This document shows, one piece after another, positions 973-20,456 of a DNA stretch of 35,069 nt (positions within the stretch are counted from its first letter, which is position 1; every line of letters starts with the position of its first letter). The position numbers and the translations under genes are program-made. A model generated the notes under the pieces. That model was not told where the DNA came from and searched no databases. It was given only the letters and a program-made list of their open reading frames with translations. The DNA comes from an uncultured Clostridia bacterium (GTDB taxonomy: Bacteria; Bacillota; Clostridia; Oscillospirales; Oscillospiraceae): positions 1 through 35,069 of the forward strand of contig CAMZIY010000010.1 of assembly GCA_947307365.1 (NCBI GenBank), written 5' to 3'.

Positions 973-1001
973 TTGACAAGACCTGCGGCAGGCCTTAGAA
1001 T
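973..1001 (+). promoter_or_regulatory. Candidate sigma-A promoter of the MoaF-like gene, with palindrome in spacer
   Basis: TTGACA (973-978), 17-bp spacer, TAGAAT (996-1001); spacer holds AAGaCCTGCgGCAGGcCTT (978-996). Confidence 0.65.
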
Positions 1002-1042
1002 CGAAACCAGGAAAAACCATAAAGAAACGGAGGACAGAGCGC

Positions 1043-2824
1043 ATGTTTTTCACGAAATTCGATCCCCTGACCAAAGAATACGTGGACGAAAAGATCGGCG
1101 CGGCTCCGGCCGCCGCAGGAAAGAGCTGCCCCTGCCTGGCGGGTCTGAAGTTCGTCGTGAAGCTGGAGGGGGAGTTCGCCCCCAAGACCCTGAAGTACGA
1201 GATCAAGGATGAGAAGACCCTGAAGGTGAAGGAAGGAAACAAGACCTGGACCGCGGCCTACGCCGCCGTCTCCCAGGGGGACGTCACCCTCCTCACCCAC
1301 CTGATCCCCGGCACGGACCGGGGCTGGCATCTGGTGATCGACCGGCGCACCTGGGCCTGCACCGCCTTTGAAACCTGGTTCGGCATCAGCGTGCCCGTGG
1401 GCGGCAGCCTGTACGGGGACCGGAAGCCGGATCATTTCCGGGATATCCCCCGGGAGATCCAGCGGCAGTACTACTTTGGCTGGATCGACAAGGGCGACAA
1501 CAAAAAGCCCGCGAAGCTCCACACCACCACCAACCGCATCGAGGGCCGCGGCCTGCACTGGGAGTTCGACACCGGCTATGAGATCCTTACCTTCAACCCC
1601 TCCAACTGCTGCACCACCTTCACGGAGCTGGGGGGCGAGATGGGCGGCATCACCATGACGAACCCGGCGGACTACATCCGCATCGACGACGAGTACTACG
1701 TCTACGCCCGCTGGGAGGTGGAGTTCTCCGGCAAGATGTGGATCGAGGTCATGAACTTCTTCGACTTCGCCGCCGCCGGCGTGGAGCTGGGCTTCGAGGC
1801 GGACAATTCCCTCACCTACCGGCTGCACCGGGCGGAGCTGGAGCGCACCGGCGACGTGGCCCACCTGGAAAAGATCACGGACTACGGCGACCAGGAACGG
1901 CCCATGGGCTTCATCAACAAGCGGAAGGGCGGACGCTACTCCTACCGGCCCGCGGATATCGACATCCCCATGACCCGGGAGGAAGCGCTGCAGCACGCCG
2001 CGGAGAAGCAGAACATCCTCAACGGCGAAGCCAACATCATGAACGCCTTCAACACCATGCCCCTGTGCGCGGACCTGGCGGGCAGGAAGTTCAAGATCTG
2101 GAACGACAAGGAAAAATACGCCCAGGCCCCCTGGAGCGGGGACAAGGGCAAGGCCTGGGAATACCAGATCATCGACGGCAGCAAGCTGAAATGGCGGCAC
2201 GGCAGCCGCAACTGGCAGGAGGAGCAGTACGCCTGCTTCCAGCCGGACAAGGACCTGTATTTCTTCGCCCACATGCTCACCGGGGATCCGGACTACAGCA
2301 TGGTGGGCCAGATTGTGGACTTTAAAAACGGCCTCACCACCACCGTCAAGACCGGCATCGGCAACTGGCACAGCGAATGGGAAGCCGGAGCCAACGTGCT
2401 CTTCGGCACCCTGGAATACAAGGATATCCAGCCTCCCTTCGCCCGGCGGCACCACTTCACGGATGAGCTGGTGGGCGAGAGCTTCGCCTATTCCTACAGC
2501 GGCAGCATGAACTCCATCCATGTGTACTCCTCCCCCGAGAGCTACTCCTGGACCATCTTCTCCGGGGATAACAGCGGCGGCGCCACCTGGTCCAGCCCCT
2601 GCTTCTATATCAAGCTCCGGCCGGACGTGTACCTCTTCCAGTGGGTGGAGGAGAACTGCAACGGCAGCCAGGGACTGCTGGTCATCAACCGGAAGATCCA
2701 GCACGACGGCGGCTTCTTCTACGGCGTCAGCCACAACGGCATCCAGCTGAACATCACCGGCGCGTATATGCGGGAGCTGGGCAAGTACAAGATCAAGAAG
2801 TACTTCGATCACTATAAAGCATAA
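1043..2824 (+). CDS. Multi-domain MoaF-like (calycin/lipocalin-fold) protein, 593 aa
   Basis: Long ORF with promoter upstream and terminator downstream. Segments such as LAGRKFKIWND..GKAWEYQIIDGSKLKWRHG and ELVGESFAYSYSG...YSWTIFSG...FYIKLRPDVYLFQWVEE resemble MoaF N/C domains, and the motif recurs internally (LHWEFDTGYEILTF...FTELGG...ADYIRIDDEYYVYARWEVEFSG). Confidence 0.65.
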   Translation: MFFTKFDPLTKEYVDEKIGAAPAAAGKSCPCLAGLKFVVKLEGEFAPKTLKYEIKDEKTLKVKEGNKTWTAAYAAVSQGDVTLLTHLIPGTDRGWHLVIDRRTWACTAFETWFGISVPVGGSLYGDRKPDHFRDIPREIQRQYYFGWIDKGDNKKPAKLHTTTNRIEGRGLHWEFDTGYEILTFNPSNCCTTFTELGGEMGGITMTNPADYIRIDDEYYVYARWEVEFSGKMWIEVMNFFDFAAAGVELGFEADNSLTYRLHRAELERTGDVAHLEKITDYGDQERPMGFINKRKGGRYSYRPADIDIPMTREEALQHAAEKQNILNGEANIMNAFNTMPLCADLAGRKFKIWNDKEKYAQAPWSGDKGKAWEYQIIDGSKLKWRHGSRNWQEEQYACFQPDKDLYFFAHMLTGDPDYSMVGQIVDFKNGLTTTVKTGIGNWHSEWEAGANVLFGTLEYKDIQPPFARRHHFTDELVGESFAYSYSGSMNSIHVYSSPESYSWTIFSGDNSGGATWSSPCFYIKLRPDVYLFQWVEENCNGSQGLLVINRKIQHDGGFFYGVSHNGIQLNITGAYMRELGKYKIKKYFDHYKA

Positions 2825-2840: not shown

Positions 2841-2877
2841 TCGCCGGTCCCGGATCTCCGGGACCGGCGATGCTTTT
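2841..2877. terminator. Rho-independent terminator after the MoaF-like gene
   Basis: Perfect 13-bp stem tcgccggtcccgg-atct-ccgggaccggcga followed by tgcttttt. Confidence 0.85.
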
Positions 2878-2882
2878 TCCGT

Positions 2883-3679: not shown

Positions 3680-3789
3680 GAGCCGTTTTCCGGTGCGTCC
3701 GGAGGGCGCCTTTTTCCCGGATTGCCCGTGTACAACGTCCGGAAAATATGGTATGCTGTACAAAAAGCAACGAGAAAGGGCGTGGAAAT

Positions 3790-6672
3790 ATGGCAGAATA
3801 TAAGAGGATCTCCCGATACTACCCCGGCTGCGACGGGACGAAGATCGCGGTGGACCTGTATATCCCTGCGACGGAGCAGCGGGTGCCCGTGCTGGTGGAG
3901 TGCGGCTATGACGACCGCCGCCGGGCCTTCGATATGCGGAAGGAGACCCTGGAGCGGTTCCTGGAGGCGGGGTATGCCCTGGCCCTCATTGAGCCCCGGG
4001 GCTCCGGCGCCAGCTACGGCGTGAGCGAGGGATTCTTCTCCCCCCGGGACGCGGACGATCTGGCCGTAATCGTGGACGCCATCACCCTGGAGCCCTGGTG
4101 CAACGGCAAGGCGGGTTCCTTCGGCGGCTCCAACAAGGGCCAGAGCCAGCAGCTCATGCTCACCCGGCAGCCCAAGCGGCTCTTTGCCTCCGCCCCCTGC
4201 GACTGCAACCCGGATTTTTATTATCAGAATTTCTGCAATGGGGCCTCCTCCCTGCCCCGTCGGCCCGGCCACCACGCCTCCGTCGAAAACATCGGCACCC
4301 CGGTGGACGAGGATCCCGCGCCGGATTACCCCCTGGCCCACGAGGCCCTGGAATGCCACCGCATGAACCTGGGCTTCCTGGAGCAGCACGTGCCCAACAT
4401 GTTCCGGGACCAGGTGAATCCCCGCATCGGCTACGCCCCCAATCTGGAGATCCCCGCCTGGTCGTATATGGACAAGATCCGCCACGGCCATGTGCAGGTG
4501 TACCAGAACGCCGCCTGGTTCGACCCCGGCTGCACCGGGGAGATCTTCGGCTGGAAGAGCTGGGGCGGCAAGCTGCTCCTGGGCCCCTGGCGGCACTGCG
4601 AGATCTACCGGGGCGGCAGCGATCTGCCGAACGGCAGCTTCGACTGGGCAGCCGAGCACATCCGCTTCTTCGACCCCATCCTGAAAGGCCGGGACAACGG
4701 CTCCCAGGATGAGCCCCCCATCCTGTACTACACCCAGGGGGCGAAGGAGGGGGAGGAATGGCGTTACGCCGCGGACCTGCCCCTGGACACCCAGACCCAG
4801 CCGGACCTGTACCTCTCCCCCGACGGGGGACTGAGGGAGGAGGACGTCCCGGCGGGGAAGCTGGACTATACCGTGCGCAGCGACCTGACCCTCTACCCCG
4901 GCTTCGGCAAGCTGGACCGGCGCATCACCGCGGACATGGGGGACTATGAGAGCAAGAGCCTCTGCTTCACCCTGCCGCCGCTGGAAAAGGATCTGGAGCT
5001 CACGGGCATCCCGGTGCTGAACCTCTGGGTCACCTCCACCCATACGGACGGGAACTTCATCGCCGCCCTGGACGAAGTCCTGCCGGACGGCTCCAGCAGC
5101 TTCATCACCGAGGGCGCCATGCGGGCCAGCCACGCCAAGCTGAGCCCCGGCACCATCCGGGACGCCTTCGGGGTCCCCTATCACCGGGGCTACCGGGCGG
5201 ACGCGGTGCAGCTCAGCCCGGATCAGCCCACCCTTCTGGCCTTCAACCTGGAGGCGACCTCCCGGATCGTGAAAAAGGGCAGCAGGCTCCGCATCGCCGT
5301 GAGCTGCGGCGGCAGCGGCTACGACCAGCCCGAGGGCTTCCCGGAAGAAGCGCCCACGGTCACGGTGCACACCGGAGGCCGCTTCGCCTCCTTCCTGCGC
5401 CTGCCGGTGATCGCCCCCAACGTCACGAAGTTCACCGGCACCCTCACCCTGGACGGGAAACCCGAGCCCGCCAGCGTGTACGCCTTCAAGCGCAGCGTAT
5501 ACGTCGAGCGCAGCGGCAGGCGGTGGCGGAAGTTCGACTGTCTCCAGGTCTTCCCCGACGGGGACCATACGCGCTTCGTCACCCGGGCCTTCACCGCCGT
5601 GCGCCGCCCCATCGCCGGGGGCATGGCCCTTACCATCGCGGTGCCCGGCCTGGCCTTCACCGGCAGCGGGAAGCTGCCGGATACCGGGACTCTGGGAGAG
5701 ACCAGTTGGGAAATCAAGCGCGCCATGCCCGGCTTCCCCGGGCCCCGGCTCCCCAAAACCACGTACCGGAACCTGTACGTGGCCACGGTGCCCGTTTCCA
5801 AGGAAGCCCCCGGCTCCTCCAATCCTCAGCCCAGGCACACCCTGGATCTGATGGTGGACGTGATCCTGCCGGAGACCGGAAAGGCCCCCTATCCCTGCTG
5901 CGTATATATCCACGGCTTCGGCGGTTCCAACCATGATTTCGAGGCCACCGCCCCGGATTTCCTGGCACGGGGCATCGCCGTGGCCTCCATCGATTACCGT
6001 CTGCCCCCTCCCACCCCCTGGCCCGCCTGCGGCTGGGACGCCAAGGGCTGCTTCCGGTATCTGAAGGCCCACGCCGCCGAGCTGGGGCTGGATCCCTCCC
6101 GCTTCGCGGTGCTGGGCGGCTCCATGGGCGGCCACCTCACCAGCATGATCGCCGCCTGCAACGGCAGCCGGGCGGACGAAGGGGATATCGGCGGCAACAC
6201 GGAGTTTGACAGCGGCGTAAAGGCCGCCTGCGCCTCCTTCGCCTTTACGGATTTCTTCGGCATGGGGGACGACTGCGCCGCCGTCTGGCCCCTCCAGGCG
6301 GATCGCATCGCCCGGTGCGACGGGCCCTACGCCCCTCTGGCCTCCATGCTGGATTACGTGGGTCCCGGCAAGGGCATGGCTGACGTGAAGCTCCATCTCC
6401 ACGACCCGGATCCCAAATACGTCGCCCTGCGGGAAAAGGCCCGGGACGCCAGCCCCATTTGCCACGTGACCCCAAAGAGCGCCCCCACAGCGCTGGTCCA
6501 CGGCATCTTTGAGTGCGGCATCCAGGTCCCCATGGGCCAGAGCCTCCGCTTCTTCGAGGCCCTCACCCGGGCGGGCGTCAAGAGCCTGCTGCTGTGCAAC
6601 AACAACGGCATATACGGGGCGGATCCGGAGGTCAGGCAGGCGGTGGTGGAGTTCATCGCGTCCCGGATCTGA
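3790..6672 (+). CDS. CocE/NonD family (X-Pro dipeptidyl-peptidase S15-like) hydrolase fused to a C-terminal BD-FAE/esterase-like alpha/beta-hydrolase domain, about 960 aa
   Basis: N-terminal part: NGKAGSFGGSNKGQSQQ aligns to the CocE elbow NGNVGMFGVSYLGVTQW; LLLGPWRHC matches GPWxH; DLELTGIPVLNLWVTSTHTDGNFIAAL...LRIAVSCGG is PepX_C-like. C-terminal part: CVYIHGFGGSNHDFEATAPDFLARGIAVASIDYRLPP...FAVLGGSMGGHL. Confidence 0.82.
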   Translation: MAEYKRISRYYPGCDGTKIAVDLYIPATEQRVPVLVECGYDDRRRAFDMRKETLERFLEAGYALALIEPRGSGASYGVSEGFFSPRDADDLAVIVDAITLEPWCNGKAGSFGGSNKGQSQQLMLTRQPKRLFASAPCDCNPDFYYQNFCNGASSLPRRPGHHASVENIGTPVDEDPAPDYPLAHEALECHRMNLGFLEQHVPNMFRDQVNPRIGYAPNLEIPAWSYMDKIRHGHVQVYQNAAWFDPGCTGEIFGWKSWGGKLLLGPWRHCEIYRGGSDLPNGSFDWAAEHIRFFDPILKGRDNGSQDEPPILYYTQGAKEGEEWRYAADLPLDTQTQPDLYLSPDGGLREEDVPAGKLDYTVRSDLTLYPGFGKLDRRITADMGDYESKSLCFTLPPLEKDLELTGIPVLNLWVTSTHTDGNFIAALDEVLPDGSSSFITEGAMRASHAKLSPGTIRDAFGVPYHRGYRADAVQLSPDQPTLLAFNLEATSRIVKKGSRLRIAVSCGGSGYDQPEGFPEEAPTVTVHTGGRFASFLRLPVIAPNVTKFTGTLTLDGKPEPASVYAFKRSVYVERSGRRWRKFDCLQVFPDGDHTRFVTRAFTAVRRPIAGGMALTIAVPGLAFTGSGKLPDTGTLGETSWEIKRAMPGFPGPRLPKTTYRNLYVATVPVSKEAPGSSNPQPRHTLDLMVDVILPETGKAPYPCCVYIHGFGGSNHDFEATAPDFLARGIAVASIDYRLPPPTPWPACGWDAKGCFRYLKAHAAELGLDPSRFAVLGGSMGGHLTSMIAACNGSRADEGDIGGNTEFDSGVKAACASFAFTDFFGMGDDCAAVWPLQADRIARCDGPYAPLASMLDYVGPGKGMADVKLHLHDPDPKYVALREKARDASPICHVTPKSAPTALVHGIFECGIQVPMGQSLRFFEALTRAGVKSLLLCNNNGIYGADPEVRQAVVEFIASRI

Positions 6673-6773: not shown

Positions 6774-7885
6774 TCAGCCTGTAACCGTGACGCTGCCGCT
6801 CAGCTTGTTGACCTTCGTCTCTGCGGCGTCCTTCACATAGACCCTGACTTTGTAGGTCCCGGATTCTGTGGGGGTATAGCTGAAGGTGTTGGCGGTGCTG
6901 TAAGCCCGGGTCTTGACTCTGACTCCGTCTTTGTAGACGATGAAGTAGTACTGCAGCGGCTGCTCGCTCCCCACCGCCGCGGCGGTCCAGGTGATCTTCT
7001 CCCCCACAGCGGCGGTGGTTTTGCCCGCTTTGACGCTGATGACGGCGGGAGGTCCCAGGGTCACCGCGACTGCCGCGCTCAGCTTGTTGACCTTGTTTTC
7101 GGCGGCGTCTTTCACGTAGACCCTGACCTTATAGGTCCCGGCTTCTGTGGGGGTATAGCTGAAGGTGTTTGCGGTGCTGTAGGCCCGGGTCTTGATCCTG
7201 ACTCCGTCCTTGTACAGGTTAAAGTAGTACTGCAGAGTACCGGAGCCGCCGGAGGTAGCAGCCGTCCAGGTGATCTTCTCCCCCGCATAAGCGCTGGTAA
7301 CGCCCGCCTTGACGCTGGAGATCGAAGGCCCGGCAGGGGTGACTGTCACGGCGGTACTCAGCTTGTTGAGCTTTGTATCATTGGCATCCTTGACGTAAAC
7401 CCTGACTTTATATGTCCCGGCCTCGGTTGGCGTATAGCTGAAGATCTGCGTCGTGCTGTAGGCCCGGGTCTTGAGCTTGGTCCCGTCCTTGTACAGGATA
7501 AAGTAGTACTGCAGGGAGCCGGAGCCGCCGGAGGCAGCAGCCGTCCAAGTGATCTTCTCCCCGGCAGAGGCAGACGTCTTGTCCGCTTTGATACTGCTGA
7601 GGGTGAGAGGCGCTGCCGCAGTCACCGTGACGCCGGAGCTGAGCTTGTTGACCTTCGTATCGGCGGCGTCCTTCACATAGACTCTGACCCTGTAGGTCCC
7701 GGGCTCAGTGGGGGTATAGCTGTAGGTATTCTTCGTGCTGTAGGAGCGGGTCTTGAGCTTGGCTCCGTCCTTGTACAGGATGAAGTAATACTGCAGGGTG
7801 CCGGAACCGCCGGAGGCCGCGGCCGTCCAGGTGATGGCGCTGCCGACAGCGGCGGAGGTTTTATTTGCGGTGACGGTTGGGGGGA
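6774..7885 (-). repeat. Four tandem repeats of about 92 aa (about 275-285 bp) encoding Ig-like domains
   Basis: Conserved blocks recur, e.g. the cttgttga motif near 6805, 7084, 7360 and 7645; protein copies are near-identical in the YKDG..KTR.YST...YTPTE.GTY.VRVYVKDA core. Confidence 0.9.
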
Positions 7886-9581
7886 ATAACGTATTGTAAT
7901 GGATGGTGACGCCGTCCAGCCCGGTATTTCCGCTCTTCACGGTGATCGCCGCCCAAGAGGTCTCCCCCGCGCCGTAGTAGATATCCGTCAGCCCCGGGCA
8001 GGAGTTAAAGGCGTAATCGCCGATGGTTGTCACGGTGGCTGGGATATTGAGATAAGTCACGCTCTGGCAGCCCCGCAGCAGATTTTTGGGGATCTGAGCT
8101 GCCTCAGGACTGAGGGTGAGGGTTTTCAAAGCCGGGCAGTTTCGGAAGCTGCCGTCTTCGGCATTGCTGGCCCCGATGGAGGTGAGGGATGCGGGAATAT
8201 TGATGCTCTTCAAGGCTGTGCAGCCCTTGAATACCGCAGTGCCCATGCTGCGGAGCCCCTCGGAGAGCGTCACCGTGGTCAGTGCCGCGCAGTCCGCAAA
8301 AGCTGCACCGTCGATCAGCGTAACGCAGCCTGGGACGGACAGCTTCGTCAGGCTCTTGCAGCCCTGGAAAGCGCCGCTGCCTATGGACGTCACGCCGTTG
8401 GGTATACTCAGCTCCGCCAGGGCCGTGCAGCCCGCAAAGGCGCTTGAGGGAATGGTGGTCACCGTGGAGGAGATCCGCACCGTTTTCAGGCTCGTGCAGC
8501 CCGCAAAAGCATAGCTCCCGATCTTCTCGATGGTATCCGGGATCGTAAGGCTTGTGACGCCCGGGCAGCCACGAAGCAGGCTGTAGGGGATCGCGGTGAG
8601 TTCCGGGCTGAAGGAAACGGACTTCAGCGCAGTGCAGCCGTTGAAGATCCCGTCTCCATTGTTGCTGGCGCTGACGTTTTTCAGCGTGGAGGGAATATAA
8701 ATGCCGGTGAGACCGGTGCAATCCCTGAAAGCTTGGGCGCCAAGGGTGACGAGACCTTCCGACAGCCGAACTGAGGTGAGGCCGGTGCAGCCCTTGAAGG
8801 CTGTGTAGCCGATGCTCTCCACGCTGCCCGGGACGGACAGCGTCGTCAGGCTCGTGCAGTCCTGGAAAGCGCCGCTGCCCACAGAAGTAACGCTGTTGGG
8901 GAGGTTCAGCTCCGCCAGGGCCGTGCAGCCCGCAAAGGCGCTGCTGCCGACGGTCTCCACCGAAGAGGGGATGCGTACAGACGCGAGTCCCGTGCAGTTC
9001 GCAAAGGCATAGTCGCCGATGGTCGTCACCGTATTGGGGATGTCGATGCTCGTCAGGCCCGTGCAGCCCCGGAGGAGGCTGTATGGCAGTTCCGTGATAC
9101 CCGGGGCGAAGGTGACGGCATCCAGCGACGAGCAGCCGGAAAACGGTGCGTCGCCGGCATTGGCAGCGTGGAGCGTGGTCAGGGTGGAGGGGATGTAGAT
9201 ATGGGTCAAGGCGCAGTTGCCGAAGGCACGGTTATGCAGCTCGCATAGGCCCTCCGTCAGGTCCGCCGTCACCAGCGCGGTACAGCCGTAAAAGGCCTCA
9301 TAGCCGATGGTCGTCACGCTGGAGGGAATCACAATGCTGACCAGGAAATCGCTGTTCCGAAACGCATTGCTGCCGATCCTTGTCACGGCCACTCCGCCGA
9401 TGGACGAGGGGATCTTGATATCGGGGGCAAGGCCCCGATAGCCGGTGATGGACAGGGTCCCGTCGTCCAGGGTCTGGGTTTCCCACAGCGAGTCCGCCGC
9501 CTGCACTGCTCCCGGCAGCAAGGCCAGCAGAAACGCCATTGTCAAGATCAAAGAGAAGAGCTTTTTTGCCGTTTTTTTCAT
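6774..9581 (-). CDS. Secreted BspA-type leucine-rich repeat (LRR_5) protein with four C-terminal Ig-like repeats, about 935 aa
   Basis: Signal peptide MKKTAKKLFSLILTMAFLLALLPGAVQAA; repeated LRR units of the form IGSYAFAGCTSLKTVRISSTVTTI; C-terminal repeats GEKITWTAA.SGGSG.LQYYF.LYKDG..KTR.YST...SYTPTE.GTYKVRVYVKDA. SD aagggggat upstream of ATG at 9581. Confidence 0.93.
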   Translation of the reverse strand: MKKTAKKLFSLILTMAFLLALLPGAVQAADSLWETQTLDDGTLSITGYRGLAPDIKIPSSIGGVAVTRIGSNAFRNSDFLVSIVIPSSVTTIGYEAFYGCTALVTADLTEGLCELHNRAFGNCALTHIYIPSTLTTLHAANAGDAPFSGCSSLDAVTFAPGITELPYSLLRGCTGLTSIDIPNTVTTIGDYAFANCTGLASVRIPSSVETVGSSAFAGCTALAELNLPNSVTSVGSGAFQDCTSLTTLSVPGSVESIGYTAFKGCTGLTSVRLSEGLVTLGAQAFRDCTGLTGIYIPSTLKNVSASNNGDGIFNGCTALKSVSFSPELTAIPYSLLRGCPGVTSLTIPDTIEKIGSYAFAGCTSLKTVRISSTVTTIPSSAFAGCTALAELSIPNGVTSIGSGAFQGCKSLTKLSVPGCVTLIDGAAFADCAALTTVTLSEGLRSMGTAVFKGCTALKSINIPASLTSIGASNAEDGSFRNCPALKTLTLSPEAAQIPKNLLRGCQSVTYLNIPATVTTIGDYAFNSCPGLTDIYYGAGETSWAAITVKSGNTGLDGVTIHYNTLFPPTVTANKTSAAVGSAITWTAAASGGSGTLQYYFILYKDGAKLKTRSYSTKNTYSYTPTEPGTYRVRVYVKDAADTKVNKLSSGVTVTAAAPLTLSSIKADKTSASAGEKITWTAAASGGSGSLQYYFILYKDGTKLKTRAYSTTQIFSYTPTEAGTYKVRVYVKDANDTKLNKLSTAVTVTPAGPSISSVKAGVTSAYAGEKITWTAATSGGSGTLQYYFNLYKDGVRIKTRAYSTANTFSYTPTEAGTYKVRVYVKDAAENKVNKLSAAVAVTLGPPAVISVKAGKTTAAVGEKITWTAAAVGSEQPLQYYFIVYKDGVRVKTRAYSTANTFSYTPTESGTYKVRVYVKDAAETKVNKLSGSVTVTG
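8045..9090 (-). repeat. Higher-order LRR super-repeat, period 166 aa / 498 bp, two full copies plus partial copies
   Basis: Corresponding codons of the YSLLRGC / YSLLRGC / KNLLRGC motifs are spaced exactly 498 bp (codons near 9081, 8583 and 8085). Each copy is six 23-aa LRRs plus one 28-aa variant. Confidence 0.85.
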
Positions 9582-9623
9582 CGTTTGTCGATCCCCCTTG
9601 CAATTGAGTATCTTCTTGTGATA

Positions 9624-9652
9624 ATTGTATTCCCCCATTTCACATCTGTCAA
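9624..9652 (-). promoter_or_regulatory. Candidate sigma-A promoter of the LRR surface-protein gene
   Basis: Minus strand TTGACA-N17-TACAAT (-35 at 9652..9647, -10 at 9629..9624). Confidence 0.7.
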
Positions 9653-9684
9653 TCACCGGGGACGCAAGGAAAGGTACGCAACAT

Positions 9685-14911: not shown

Positions 14912-15652
14912 CTATTTGCGGAAACGGGGCGTCCTGGCCTCAAAGGTGACCAGCAGCTCCCGCAGGATCTCCGGCAGGGGGACATCCGTATGCAGAGGCC
15001 GGAGGAAGCGGTATTTCTGCCGCGCCGCCTCTTTCCTCTTCCGGATGCTCTCCTTTACCGCATCAAAACGCACCACCACGTCATTTTCCGCGGCGAAGCG
15101 CCGGAGCTTCGCCGTCAGGTTGGCGGAATTCACCACATCCAGGATGAAAAAGCCGAAGAAAAGGCCGATGAAGAAGGAGAAGGCCAGGTTTTGAGAGAGC
15201 CAGTCCAATGCATGAAGGATCCGGGGATGGATCAGGAAATAGTACAGAGCGCCCAGGAGCGCCCAGGCCAGGGAGAATTTGGGGCAGATGATCCCCTGGA
15301 TATTCCCCCACTGATCCGTATAGTCCCACAGGCGCACCTTCGCCACCCGCAGGGCCAGGAGGCCCGCGACGTATTCGATCCCCGTCATGGCCAGGGCCAT
15401 GACGGCAAAGAGGGCGATCCGCTTCCACACCGGGTCCCGGATCAGGTCTGCGCTCTCCAGGAAAGTAAGCAGATACAGGATGCACAGGCCGCTGCCATAC
15501 AGGGGAAGCCAGGGTCCGGTGCAGAAACCGGGGTTGATCCATCGGCGCTCCGGGTTCGCCCGGGAGAAAAAGCGGCGGAAGAAAACCTCCAGCACCCATC
15601 CCGCCACGGAACCCAGGAAAAACAGATATGCGAAGATGAGGAAAAGGGGCAT
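14912..15652 (-). CDS. Putative ABC transporter permease/CmpB-type membrane protein (ABC_trans_CmpB family), 246 aa
   Basis: FLGSVAGWVLEVFFRRFFSRANPERRWINPGFCTGPWLPLYGSG...LWDYTDQWGNIQGIICPKFSLAWALLGALYYFLIHP. Confidence 0.85.
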   Translation of the reverse strand: MPLFLIFAYLFFLGSVAGWVLEVFFRRFFSRANPERRWINPGFCTGPWLPLYGSGLCILYLLTFLESADLIRDPVWKRIALFAVMALAMTGIEYVAGLLALRVAKVRLWDYTDQWGNIQGIICPKFSLAWALLGALYYFLIHPRILHALDWLSQNLAFSFFIGLFFGFFILDVVNSANLTAKLRRFAAENDVVVRFDAVKESIRKRKEAARQKYRFLRPLHTDVPLPEILRELLVTFEARTPRFRK

Positions 15653-15661
15653 AGCCGGTCC

Positions 15662-16375
15662 TCACCTCCGGAAAACGCCGGGCAGGAGCCGGAAATACTG
15701 CTTCATGAGGATGGATCCCTCCACGGAATCCGGGGCGAAGAGCCGCCCGGACCGCTCCGAAAGCACCGGCAGGAGCTTGTAGCACAGGAACAGGAGCAGT
15801 CCCGCCAGCAGGATCCCCAGGACGGCGCCCAGGATGCCTCCCAGGGCCCGGTTCGTCTCGTTCACCAGCGGGATATGGTCGATCAGCGGGGCGATCACCC
15901 CGTTGAACAGGAGGCGCAGAAGGAGGGAGGCCAGGATCAGTCCCAGAAGGAACAGGATCCATCCCGCCAGCCGCCGGGCGATGAGCTGGGCGGCGCTGGC
16001 CACCGCGGAGGCGCCGCTTTCCCGCATCTGCAGGACCTGCTCCGGAATGTTCAGCTTCAGAAAGGCGGGAAGCTCCGCGTTGTCCAGGATCCGCTGCAGG
16101 TTCTCCAGCAGGTCCGAGAGGCCCAGATTGTCCTTGGCCCGTTCCAATACACGGCCGATGGCCGGGGCGATCCACAGCTCCGCCACCGTATCCGCCAGCA
16201 GATTCTTCAGGATGATGCCGGCCCAGATGCCGCCTATCAGGGAGATCAGCCCGCCCAGCATCCGCACCAGTCCGCTGCGGGCGCCGGATACGAGCTTCCA
16301 GACGATGATGGCCAGCAGGACCACGTCCGCCAGGATCCCCGCGTTCAGGCTCATGGATGCGACCATTGGATTCAT
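15662..16375 (-). CDS. CvpA family membrane protein, about 237 aa
   Basis: MNPMVASMSLNAGILADVVLLAIIVWKLVSGARSGLVRMLGGLISLIGGIWAGIILKNLLAD...NRALGGILGAVLGILLAGLLLFLCYKLL; SD gaggaggag upstream of ATG at 16375. Confidence 0.82.
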   Translation of the reverse strand: MNPMVASMSLNAGILADVVLLAIIVWKLVSGARSGLVRMLGGLISLIGGIWAGIILKNLLADTVAELWIAPAIGRVLERAKDNLGLSDLLENLQRILDNAELPAFLKLNIPEQVLQMRESGASAVASAAQLIARRLAGWILFLLGLILASLLLRLLFNGVIAPLIDHIPLVNETNRALGGILGAVLGILLAGLLLFLCYKLLPVLSERSGRLFAPDSVEGSILMKQYFRLLPGVFRR

Positions 16376-16544
16376 CTTGTCTCCTCCTCTCACGCGCCGG
16401 GTCCCGGAAAGGTCCGGCGCCGTTTCTCCGTTTACCAGCTTATGCGCGGGCTGCGCCCGGGTTTCCGCGCCGCCCGACGGCGCGGTCATTCTTCCATCTG
16501 TTGGACGCCCGGAGCCTCGGAAGGTTCCTTCCCCGGTCCTCCGC

Positions 16545-17570
16545 TTACTCCCGGCAGATGGTGCCGCCGAAGAGGAGGAGGTCCCCCTCGTACCCCGCCG
16601 CCAGCTGGCCGGGGGCGGGACGGCGCACGGGTTCGTCGAAATGCAGGAGCAGGCTCCCGTCCTCCCTGGGCTCCACCAGGGCAAAATTCCTCCGGGGACC
16701 GCTGCGGAGCTTCACCTCCGCCCGGAAGGCTTCTTTCCGCTCCGGTACGGAGACCCAGTTCAGGTCCCGCACCGGGACCTCCCGGGTATCCAGCTCCTCC
16801 CGGGGGGTCAGCAGGATCTCATTGGTCTCCCGCCGCAGCTCCGCCACGTACAGGCGGCTCTCTGCCGAGACCCCCAGGCCCCGGCGCTGGCCGATGGTAT
16901 ACCGGTGCAGGCCCTTGTGACGCCCCAACACCCGTCCGGCGGCATCCACGAAGTCCCCTTCCGGCAGGCTCAGGCCCCGGCTCTCCAGCCAGGCGCCGTA
17001 ATCCCCGTCCGGGATGAAGCAGATATCCTGGCTCTCCTTCTCCCCTGCGGCGCCCAGGCCGGCGGAGGCGGCGGAAATCTTCACCTCGCCCTTCTCCATC
17101 CCCGCCAGGGGAAACAGGATGCGGCGCAGCTGATCCTGGGACAGACGGGCCAGCATATAGCTCTGGTCCTTTCTCCCCCCGGAGGCCAGAAGACGGGTGC
17201 GTCCATCCGGGCCGGTCTCAGTCCGGGCGTAATGTCCCGTGGCGATCTTCTCCGCCCCCCATTCCTCCGCGGCTTTCAACAGGGAGGGGATCTTCACCCG
17301 GGGATTGCATACGGCGCAGGGATTGGGGGTGAGCCCGGCCATGTAGGCTTCCCCGAAGGGGCGGCGGACCAGAGCCTCATGGGCTTCCGCCGCCGGGAAG
17401 ACCCGGAAGGGGATCCCCAGCTCCCGGGCGGTGCGCTCTGCCGCAGTGGGGCTCCCGAAGCCCAGATCCAGCCAGACGCCCAGGACCTCATAGCCCGCCT
17501 CCCGCAGACGGCGGGCGGCCTCGCTGCTGTCCACGCCGCCGGAAAGGCCCAGGACTGCCTTTTCCATCAT
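16545..17570 (-). CDS. mnmA: tRNA-specific 2-thiouridylase MnmA
   Basis: [13 protein letters not shown] (P-loop), [14 protein letters not shown] and [17 protein letters not shown] (both catalytic Cys motifs), [23 protein letters not shown]. Confidence 0.93.
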
Positions 17571-19438
17571 CTTCTCTCCTTATCCAGCCAAATCATCAGG
17601 GCGGCCATGTCCGCCGGATTCACCCCGGAGATCCGGGAGGCCTGGCCGAAGTTCTCCGGCCGCACCTTATCCAGCTTCTGCCGGGCCTCCAGCCGGAGGC
17701 TGTCGATATGCAGATAATCCAGATCCGCGGGCAGGGGCCGCTGCTCCAGGCGGCGGAATTCCTCCGCCTGCTTCTGCTGCCGCTTGATATACCCCTCGTA
17801 CTTGATGCCGATCTCCGTTTCCAGGCCGATGCTCCGGTCCAGCTCCGGCCGGCCGGGATCGAAGGGGAGCAGATCGGCGTAGCTGATCCCGGGGCGGCGG
17901 ATCAGATCCGCCAGGGAGATCCCGGAGGCGGGTAAGGCGCTGTTCTTTTCCTCCAGAAATGCCGACAGCTCCGGGGAGGGGGCCAGATGGGTATGCTCCA
18001 GCCGCTCCCGCTCCGCCGCCACCCGGCGGTACTTCTCCCGCACCTGCTCCAGCCGCTCATCGCTCACCAGGCCGATGGCATGGCCCTTCTCCGTCATGCG
18101 TTCGTCCGCGTTGTCCTGCCGGAGGAGCAGGCGGTATTCGCTGCGGGAGGTCATCATCCGGTAGGGCTCGTTGGTGCCCTTGGTCACCAGATCGTCCAGG
18201 AGCACGCCGATGTATCCCTCGCTCCGGTCCAGGGTGAAGGGCTCCCGTCCCAGCAGGGCCAGGGCGGCGTTCACCCCCGCCATGAAGCCCTGGACCGCCG
18301 CTTCCTCATAGCCGGAGCTGCCGTTGAACTGTCCCGCCCCGTAGAGGCCCGGGACCTGCTTCGTCTCCAGGGTATGCCGCAAGGCCAGGGGATCCACACA
18401 GTCGTACTCGATGGCGTAGGCGGGGCGCTGCATCTCCGCATGCTCCAGACCGATGACGGTGTGGAGCATCTGCAGCTGTACGTCCTCCGGCATGGAGGAG
18501 GAAAAGCCCTGTACGTAGACCTCTTCCGTATCCAGGCCCATGGGCTCCAGGAAAAGCTGATGCCGGGGCTTGTCCGCAAAGCGCACCACCTTGTCCTCGA
18601 TGGAGGGACAGTACCGGGGGCCGACGCCCTCGATCACCCCGGAGAACAGGGGGCTGCGGTGGAGGTTTTCCCGGATGATCCGGTGGGTCTCCTCCGTGGT
18701 GTAGGTGAGCCAGCAGACCGCCCGGTTCTCCAGGGGCGTCTTTGTGGTGAAGGAAAAGGGTTCCGGCGCCGGGTCCCCGTACTGGGGCTCCAGCCGGGAA
18801 TAATCCACCGTCAGTCCGTTGATGCGGGGCGGGGTCCCGGTCTTGAACCGGCGGAGCGGGAGTCCCAGGGCTTTCAGGCTCTCCGTCAGGGCGGTGGCGG
18901 CGTGCATCCCGTCCGGGCCGCTTTCCCGCATGACCTCCCCCACGATAGTCCTGCCCCGGAGATAGGTGCCGGTGCAGATCACCGCCGCCCGGCAGCGCCA
19001 GGTGGCCCCCGTCTCGGTGCGGACCCAGGCCACCCGCCCGTTCTCCGTACCCAGCTCCGTGATCTCCGCCTGCTTCAGCCGCAGCCGGGGCTGCCGCTCC
19101 AGGGTGCGCTTCATGATCCGCTGGTAGAGCTTCCGGTCCGCCTGGGCCCGGAGGGAGTGGACCGCCGGTCCCTTCCCCAGGTTCAGCATCCGGTACTGGA
19201 TGCAGGCGGCGTCCGCCGCCTTGCCCATTTCGCCCCCCAGGGCGTCCAGCTCCCGTACCAGGTGGCCCTTGCCCGTGCCGCCCACCGCCGGATTGCAGGG
19301 CATGTTCCCCACCGCGTCCAGATTGATGGTGAAGAGCACCGTATCCAGGCCCATGCGGGCAGCCGCCAGAGCGGCTTCGATCCCCGCGTGGCCGGCGCCG
19401 ATCACGGCGATATCGCAGCTTCCCGCCTCAAAAATCAT
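17567..19438 (-). CDS. mnmG: tRNA uridine-5-carboxymethylaminomethyl modification enzyme MnmG (GidA)
   Basis: [64 protein letters not shown]...[18 protein letters not shown]. Confidence 0.98.
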
Positions 19439-20456
19439 TTTCGGTCACCTCTGTCTCTCCCTGCTGACGGAACAGCAGGTCCATACGGATCTTTTTCCAT
19501 TCCGGGGCAAACCGGCGCTCCAGTCCGGCGGCGGTATCCCCCATCTCCCGTCGGAACAGGCCCGATGCTGCCAGGCTGCGGAGGCTCTCCGCCCCCTCCC
19601 CGGTGAGGGTGTCCGCCTCTGCCTCCAGAGGACAGCGGAGGATCAGATATACCCCGTCCTCCAGCCGGAGGGCGGCGCAGCCGCCCGTCTCCAGGGAAGC
19701 GGCGGCGGCATACAGGGCTTCCTCCCCGCAGCCGGGGGCCAGCTGTCTCCCGGCGCTCAGGCGCTCGTCCTCCCCGTAGGCGGCGCAGAGCTCGTCGAAG
19801 TCCGCTTCTCCCCGCCGGAGCTGCCGGGCGAAGATCTCCGCCTGCTCCAGTCTGCCCCGGATCTCCGTTTCGGTGTAGATCTCCGGGTTCGCGCTGAGCC
19901 ACAGGGCCCGGATGCGCAGGACACCGTTTTCCTCCCCCCAGCGCACCGCCTCTTCTTCGGACAGGAGGCTCCCCTCCGGCCCGTATTTCCGGAGGTAAAG
20001 CAGGGAGGACAGGCTTTCCGCCCGCAGGAGGCTCTCCGCCACCGAAGGGGTGACGAAGGTCTCCCGGCACAGGGCCTCCGTCATCTCCGGATCCGGCTCC
20101 GGGGCGCTGATCCCCGCTTCCATGGCCAGGACCGTCACCGCCCGCCAGCGGGCGGCCCGAAGCAGAGCCAGTTCCTTCACCTGCTCCGCCAGGGTCTCGT
20201 CGTAAAACAGATCGACCTCTCCCGGATCCCTGCCCAGATCCCGGGTCAGGGCTTCCCAGGCCTGATACCGGAATTCTTCCATGGTAAGCCCCAGGCCGCC
20301 CAGCCGGGCCACCACCGCCCGCTCCGGCACATAATAGGGCTTCTCCTCCGGGGCCGCGGGGGACATCCGGTCATTTTGGGACAGGGCCAGGAGCCCGATG
20401 GCAGCCAGGCAGAACAAAGCCAGAGGCAAAACGCGCTTCAGCAGCAGCCGCTTCAT
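19428..20456 (-). CDS. Membrane-anchored SurA/PrsA-like protein with degenerate parvulin-like domain, 342 aa
   Basis: N-terminal [45 protein letters not shown] resembles the parvulin G-x-DF-x-x-L-A...S-x-D motif. Adjacent to mfd, where foldase genes are often found in Clostridia. Confidence 0.6.

Follow-up and report, generated by a model that had tools for sequence, protein, structure and literature searches.

The locus and its features

Near the beginning of the window (the whole stretch of 35,069 nucleotides that was analysed) lies a gene for a protein in which two MoaF units are fused; the gene, its candidate expression signals and the parts of its product are collected in Table 1. About 50 genome contigs contain intact homologues of the same length, at 46–99 % identity. 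Estimates of dN/dS by the Nei-Gojobori method are 0.13–0.41 for the window gene against six relatives and 0.66 against the second double gene of the same genome (about 62 % identical), it being understood that dS in such estimates may be lowered by base-composition bias. The protein is apparently cytoplasmic. A consensus scan of the region gave 2 candidate sigma-70-like sites where 0.5 would be expected, and the presence of such a site before the gene and of a strong hairpin with a T-run behind it implies that the double MoaF gene most likely forms a transcription unit of its own. On the opposite strand, a 605-aa ORF at 995–2812 can most likely be put down to high GC.

Table 1 Features of the double MoaF locus; positions are those of the window.
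Feature	Position	Strand	Remarks
Sigma-70-like candidate promoter	973..1001	+	TTGACA-17-TAGAAT, 11/12 match; consensus scan
Shine-Dalgarno	1029..1034	+	GGAGGA, 8 bases 5' of ATG; from sequence
Gene for fused double MoaF protein, 593 aa	1043..2824	+	Real, conserved gene; no apparent signal peptide
Barrel 1 (N1, diverged MoaF_N), residues 31–149	1133..1489	+	Invariant E110, W112, F113, R137, E138, R141
Barrel 2 (C1, diverged MoaF_C), residues 160–272	1520..1858	+	W173, E225 (53/68) and invariant E227 kept; H-x-Y lost (T183, N185)
Linker, residues 273–340	1859..2062	+	Near-invariant TGDxAHLE (from 269) and KGxRYxYRPxDxDxPM; second part similar to the start of a separate MoaF gene in another family
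Barrel 3 (N2, MoaF N-terminal domain, PF10703), residues 345–458	2075..2416	+	
Barrel 4 (C2, MoaF C-terminal domain, PF17409), residues 471–582	2453..2788	+	PAD-like
Codons Y483 to Y485	2489..2497	+	Aligned with PAD Tyr11 and Tyr13; 483 is W in most relatives
Codons H493 to Y495	2519..2527	+	MoaF H-x-Y signature, absent from PAD
Codon E536	2648..2650	+	Aligned with PAD Glu64
Intrinsic terminator	2841..2880	+	13-bp stem, 4-base loop, T-run

The flanking genes are an enolase-superfamily gene of MR/MLE type and an alpha/beta hydrolase, both on the reverse strand, and on the forward strand (3748–6669) a 974-aa chain in which a CocE/NonD (S15-PepX) hydrolase is fused to a BD-FAE (feruloyl/acetyl-xylan esterase-like) domain. 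Further along, at 6777–9656 (reverse strand), is a secreted-looking protein of 960 aa whose translation has BspA-type-like leucine-rich repeats and, after them, four repeats of Ig/PKD-like type. Two other ORFs, at 14990–17014 (forward, 675 aa) and 19431–20456 (reverse, 342 aa), have no Pfam match at E 0.001 and may not be genes.

Domain architecture

The product of the gene has the order MoaF_N–MoaF_C–MoaF_N–MoaF_C, i.e. it consists of two complete MoaF units fused end to end, giving four calycin-type barrels, where "barrel" denotes a strand count together with the Foldseek matches of a predicted model. For this architecture taken together with a single origin of the fusion (see below) we would put the probability at about 95 %. 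The MoaF family is itself known, although without an established function; what is new here is the fused variant. Whereas a MoaF chain would have one N and one C barrel, this protein has two of each, so that it is a fused variant rather than a standard member, and NCBIfam has no model for it.

Only half 2 is confidently recognised by Pfam, half 1 being too diverged: above their cut-offs are MoaF (PF10703) at residues 337–440, with a whole-protein score of 56.1 bits against 23.3, and MoaF_C (PF17409) at residues 471–566, with 50.9 bits against 22.1, and both families were matched in all 40 of the relatives tested. The relationship of the two halves emerges when family profiles are compared using hhalign, N1 matching N2 at 99.3 % (E 9e-21) and C1 matching C2 at 98.6 % (E 5e-16), these E-values being for a single pair and not database-scaled; the corresponding figures with a smaller, earlier set of profiles were 97 % and 88 %. 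The sole cross-match between N and C domains is that of N2 with C2 (87 %), N1 having no match to either C.

An AlphaFold2 model built from an 84-sequence alignment has a mean pLDDT of 91.4 and a pTM of 0.90 (a single-sequence model, with a pLDDT of 33, was discarded), and its predicted strands fall into four groups of eight, at residues 36–149, 169–272, 349–458 and 479–582. Among solved structures its best Foldseek match is MoaF 4q51 (E 6e-13, target TM 0.77), followed by 5hal and then by phenolic acid decarboxylases (PADs), for which the probability is 1.00 and the target TM about 0.5. The first-pass annotation, made from the letters alone, had divided the protein into four blocks, proposed an N-C-N-C duplication with a calycin-type fold, and aligned blocks 2 and 4 by eye; profiles and model agree with it on all these points, including the number of barrels.

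MoaF 4q51, from Burkholderia cenocepacia (PF10703 plus PF17409), has the same N–C order of calycin-type domains as each half, and its C domain shares with barrel 4 a signature of W/Y-x-Y, H-x-Y and E (specifically Y-x-Y, H-x-Y and E in 4q51, on alignment with the family profile). It differs in that the window protein fuses two such units, of which half 1 lies beyond confident Pfam recognition, is without H-x-Y and has invariant residues of its own. Barrel 4 also matches the profile of the MoaF-like family PF22036 above its cut-off; 5hal, a single stand-alone solved barrel that matches the model with a Foldseek probability of 1.00, would appear to belong to that family. Unfused MoaF paralogues in the same genomes (singles, of about 300 aa) have the same two-domain unit and site as the doubles but are without the signature of half 1 and share only a minority of the extra invariant residues.

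Barrel 4 and phenolic acid decarboxylase

When the 84-sequence family profile was run against all PDB chain sequences, 12 sequences were found up to E 10, namely 4q51 (2e-33) and eleven PADs, the best of these at E 0.004. By hhalign the similarity to PAD is located in C2 (94 %), weakly in N2 (47 %), and in neither N1 nor C1, so that the PAD likeness noticed earlier applies to barrel 4 and, weakly, to barrel 3, but not by sequence to barrels 1 and 2. Of the three Pfam families proposed for checking the original assignment, the two MoaF domains were recovered in half 2 while PA_decarbox (PF05870) was not among the matches at E values up to 1. A gene for a PF05870 PAD was likewise not found in the window's genome, which is about 72 % complete.

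PAD, exemplified by PadC of B. subtilis (4alb) and PDC of L. plantarum (2w2a), has one barrel per chain, of the same type as those seen here. Its residues Tyr11/Tyr13, Arg41 and Glu64 have been proposed to take part in substrate binding and conversion (PMC10915792), Glu64 being able to serve as both general acid and general base (PMC10116590); these roles of Glu64 and Tyr13 as general acid/base and substrate-binding residues are discussed in PMC10116590, PMC10915792 and PMC3025021. Mapping from the B. subtilis enzyme, by sequence alignment at about 20 % identity rather than by superposition, places Tyr13 at Y485 (in 68/68 doubles and 26/28 singles), Glu64 at E536 (68/68 and 27/28) and Tyr11 at Y483, a position occupied by Trp in 63 of the 68 doubles. 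In contrast, catalytic Arg41 aligns with G513 (Gly in 66/68 doubles, although another residue could fill the place of Arg41 spatially), and Tyr31 with W503, which is invariant across the doubles but not across the singles. Conversely, H493 and Y495 are near-invariant in singles and doubles and have no counterpart in PAD. With Glu64 and Tyr13 kept, Arg41 and Tyr31 lost and His-x-Tyr added, what is predicted is a PAD-like site with altered chemistry, and not decarboxylation; that barrel 4 holds a PAD-like site of some kind is highly probable.

Divergence of half 1 and origin of the fusion

In the C1/C2 alignment the half-1 equivalents of H493 and Y495 are T183 and N185, while E225 is kept in 53 of 68 doubles and E227 in all. 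Residues conserved in at least 95 % of doubles include E110, W112, F113, R137, E138, R141, T163, R165, E167 and W173, and in the linker R298, Y301, R302 and P303. This combination of conserved residues of its own with loss of His-x-Tyr implies that half 1 is constrained for a role different from that of the ancestral site.

A tree of 73 units, repeated with 40 units, groups every first half in one clade (support 100/100) and every second half in a second clade (100/99), which implies one duplication or fusion without later mixing.

In a genome from another family of the class (G057, contig C407, 4115–8102) there are four tandem MoaF genes, preceded by a URO-D-type gene and a MATE transporter. 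The third of these (c) groups with half 1 in the best trees and the fourth (d) with half 2, with support of 98/94 and 91/78 in the first tree and 55/85 and 84/87 in the repeat, and the start of the fourth gene, MNQLLRPYRPHRMTVEMTEQEV, resembles the linker of the double, YRPADIDIPMTREEA, in having a YRP...MT.EE-like pattern. The order of the genes agrees as well, and it may be that the fusion joined two adjacent paralogues, of which genes c and d would be the unfused orthologues. However, an AU test keeps alternative placements of c and d (p 0.31 and 0.40), half 1 sits on a long branch, and the fourth gene is truncated by the end of the contig; because the alternatives are unrejected and the half-1 branch is long, the pair is retained here only as a lead.

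Distribution and gene neighbourhood

Relatives come mostly from metagenome-assembled genomes labelled Oscillospiraceae or Clostridiales, from rumen, other ruminant, horse gut, termite-gut and digester sources as far as record titles suggest. A match to the family, whether double or single, was found in 16 of 101 genomes of the window's own family, 6 of 291 of the class and 3 of 399 of the phylum (these last including the window's own), and doubles are present in the window's family and in two others (f28, in G084, and f144, in G483 and G665). Carrier genomes commonly have several MoaF genes, the window's having two doubles and at least seven singles, and doubles and singles are frequently neighbours. 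The second double of this genome (contig C52, 9448–11220) adjoins a URO-D-type gene, with a UGSC-family protein and a glycyl radical enzyme farther along. Elsewhere (G382, contig C31), a tandem array combines three MoaF genes and a 232-aa divergent MoaF-like protein with an SDR, a URO-D gene and ABC transporters.

A search for a conserved operon at the double loci found none, the neighbours varying from locus to locus. Joint working with the CocE/BD-FAE protein was considered, but the case is weak because only the closest relatives retain the two genes together. Raw counts over 109 near neighbours of doubles gave 7 FAD oxidoreductases, 5 proteins of Old Yellow/enoate-reductase type, 5 MFS, 3 BD-FAE and 3 URO-D. 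Among the 150 matches listed, 8 of the 62 MoaF clusters have a glycyl radical enzyme within 5 kb, as against 2.9 expected (P about 0.01, this being one of three distances tried); at 3 kb and 8 kb, P is about 0.04. These P values are uncorrected for the choice of family or distance. Taken as a whole, the neighbourhood fits loosely with a role in the anaerobic handling of plant-derived aromatics.

Across 16 genomes there are 2–23 glycyl radical enzymes and 0–26 URO-D-family proteins per genome. Six of the glycyl radical enzymes were tested and scored far under all NCBIfam equivalog cut-offs, so that their substrates are probably unassigned. At one locus (L121, 11976–13913; also at L030 and L032), a 646-aa protein without a Pfam or NCBIfam match, possibly a wrong-frame ORF, adjoins MoaF and glycyl radical enzyme genes.

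Possible functions

Tentatively, and at somewhat less than even odds, the MoaF double may act as an enzyme, by acid/base chemistry on small aromatic molecules. Barrel 4, presumably open-ended as in PAD, would then be the working site, and the ligand would be a small, probably plant-derived aromatic (phenylpropanoid-like) molecule, oriented by Tyr485, Trp/Tyr483 and the added His493 and Tyr495, with Glu536 as general acid/base. As the Arg that grips the carboxylate in PAD is missing, the reaction would probably be an isomerisation, hydration/dehydration or similar step, in which a proton is moved to or from a side chain activated by a phenol or enol, rather than decarboxylation of the PAD type. 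Half 1, given its loss of His-x-Tyr and its own invariant charged residues, would most likely provide a second, different pocket, or else be a structural or regulatory partner, formerly a separate subunit. The first-pass annotation had suggested binding or decarboxylation of small aromatic or lactone-type compounds: binding or conversion of aromatics is plausible and has loose support from the neighbourhood, decarboxylation is less supported given the residues lost from the site, although others are kept, and there is no specific indication of lactones.

Binding proteins are common among those with calycin-type barrels, and it is a serious, if rather doubtful, possibility that the double is instead a non-catalytic binder, i.e. 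a lipocalin-like protein, with several pockets in each chain, that would carry, sense or scavenge small molecules of a hydrophobic or aromatic kind. Varied neighbours, as for an accessory protein, with MFS and ABC transporters among them, would suit such a role, as would the occurrence of as many as four MoaF genes in a row; on the other hand, Glu, His and Tyr are near-invariant in the PAD-like site of both singles and doubles and look more like catalytic residues than binding ones, and the nearest other family, PAD, is an enzyme. Were it a true phenolic acid decarboxylase, removing CO2 from hydroxycinnamates, one could point to the fold and profile matches, to the retained equivalents of Tyr13 and Glu64, to a neighbouring gene with a feruloyl-esterase-like domain and to the lack of any detected PF05870 PAD in the incomplete genome, but the alignment of Arg41 with Gly513 and of Tyr31 with Trp503, together with the lack of a PA_decarbox match at E up to 1, would make this distinctly improbable.

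A partnership with a radical or corrinoid pathway of anaerobes (glycyl radical enzymes, URO-D-type methyltransferases), for example in processing aromatic or ether substrates or products, draws on the 14 Gly_radical and 16 URO-D matches in the window's genome, on the glycyl radical enzymes near MoaF clusters and on the URO-D genes that adjoin this genome's second double and several others. It is nevertheless unlikely, as the enrichment is modest, neither kind of gene occurs in the visible flank of the window copy, and most loci are without them. As for molybdenum-cofactor biosynthesis, the only pointers to it are the name that was inherited and the title of entry 4q51, and it may almost be dismissed: 4 of the 8 better carrier genomes (at least 90 % complete, at most 5 % contamination) lack MoaC, an absence that contradicts a general role in cofactor synthesis, and, MoaF itself apart, model and profile both match PAD best rather than any pterin enzyme. 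Work by Azakami in 1995 reportedly described a Klebsiella moaEF operon; expression or a role in the monoamine regulon would be a further mark of MoaF. A moaF in a moaDEF operon has been termed "MoCo-unrelated", but also a fluoride transporter, and is maybe another gene (PMC11540253). No functional study of MoaF was found in the literature searched.

Implications

Extending the proposal of acid/base enzymology in barrel 4 to the family as a whole, MoaF might be a sister enzyme family of PAD that, with a rebuilt site, carries out a novel acid/base step on aromatics of plant origin in gut anaerobes; the fused form would then be a permanently joined pair of former subunits with two different pockets. 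As a complete picture this is on the unlikely side. The name MoaF is misleading, no established biochemical role having been found in the literature searched, and the profile link to PAD, with its exact list of residues kept and lost, defines a small set of mutants and substrates with which the function of MoaF could be approached. The fused form, which has a single origin and has so far been met chiefly in gut bacteria, offers a case where one MoaF unit drifts to a new role while the other retains the ancestral site. Finally, the many MoaF paralogues, some of them beside radical and flavin enzymes, provide a lead on how rumen and termite bacteria may deal with plant aromatics.
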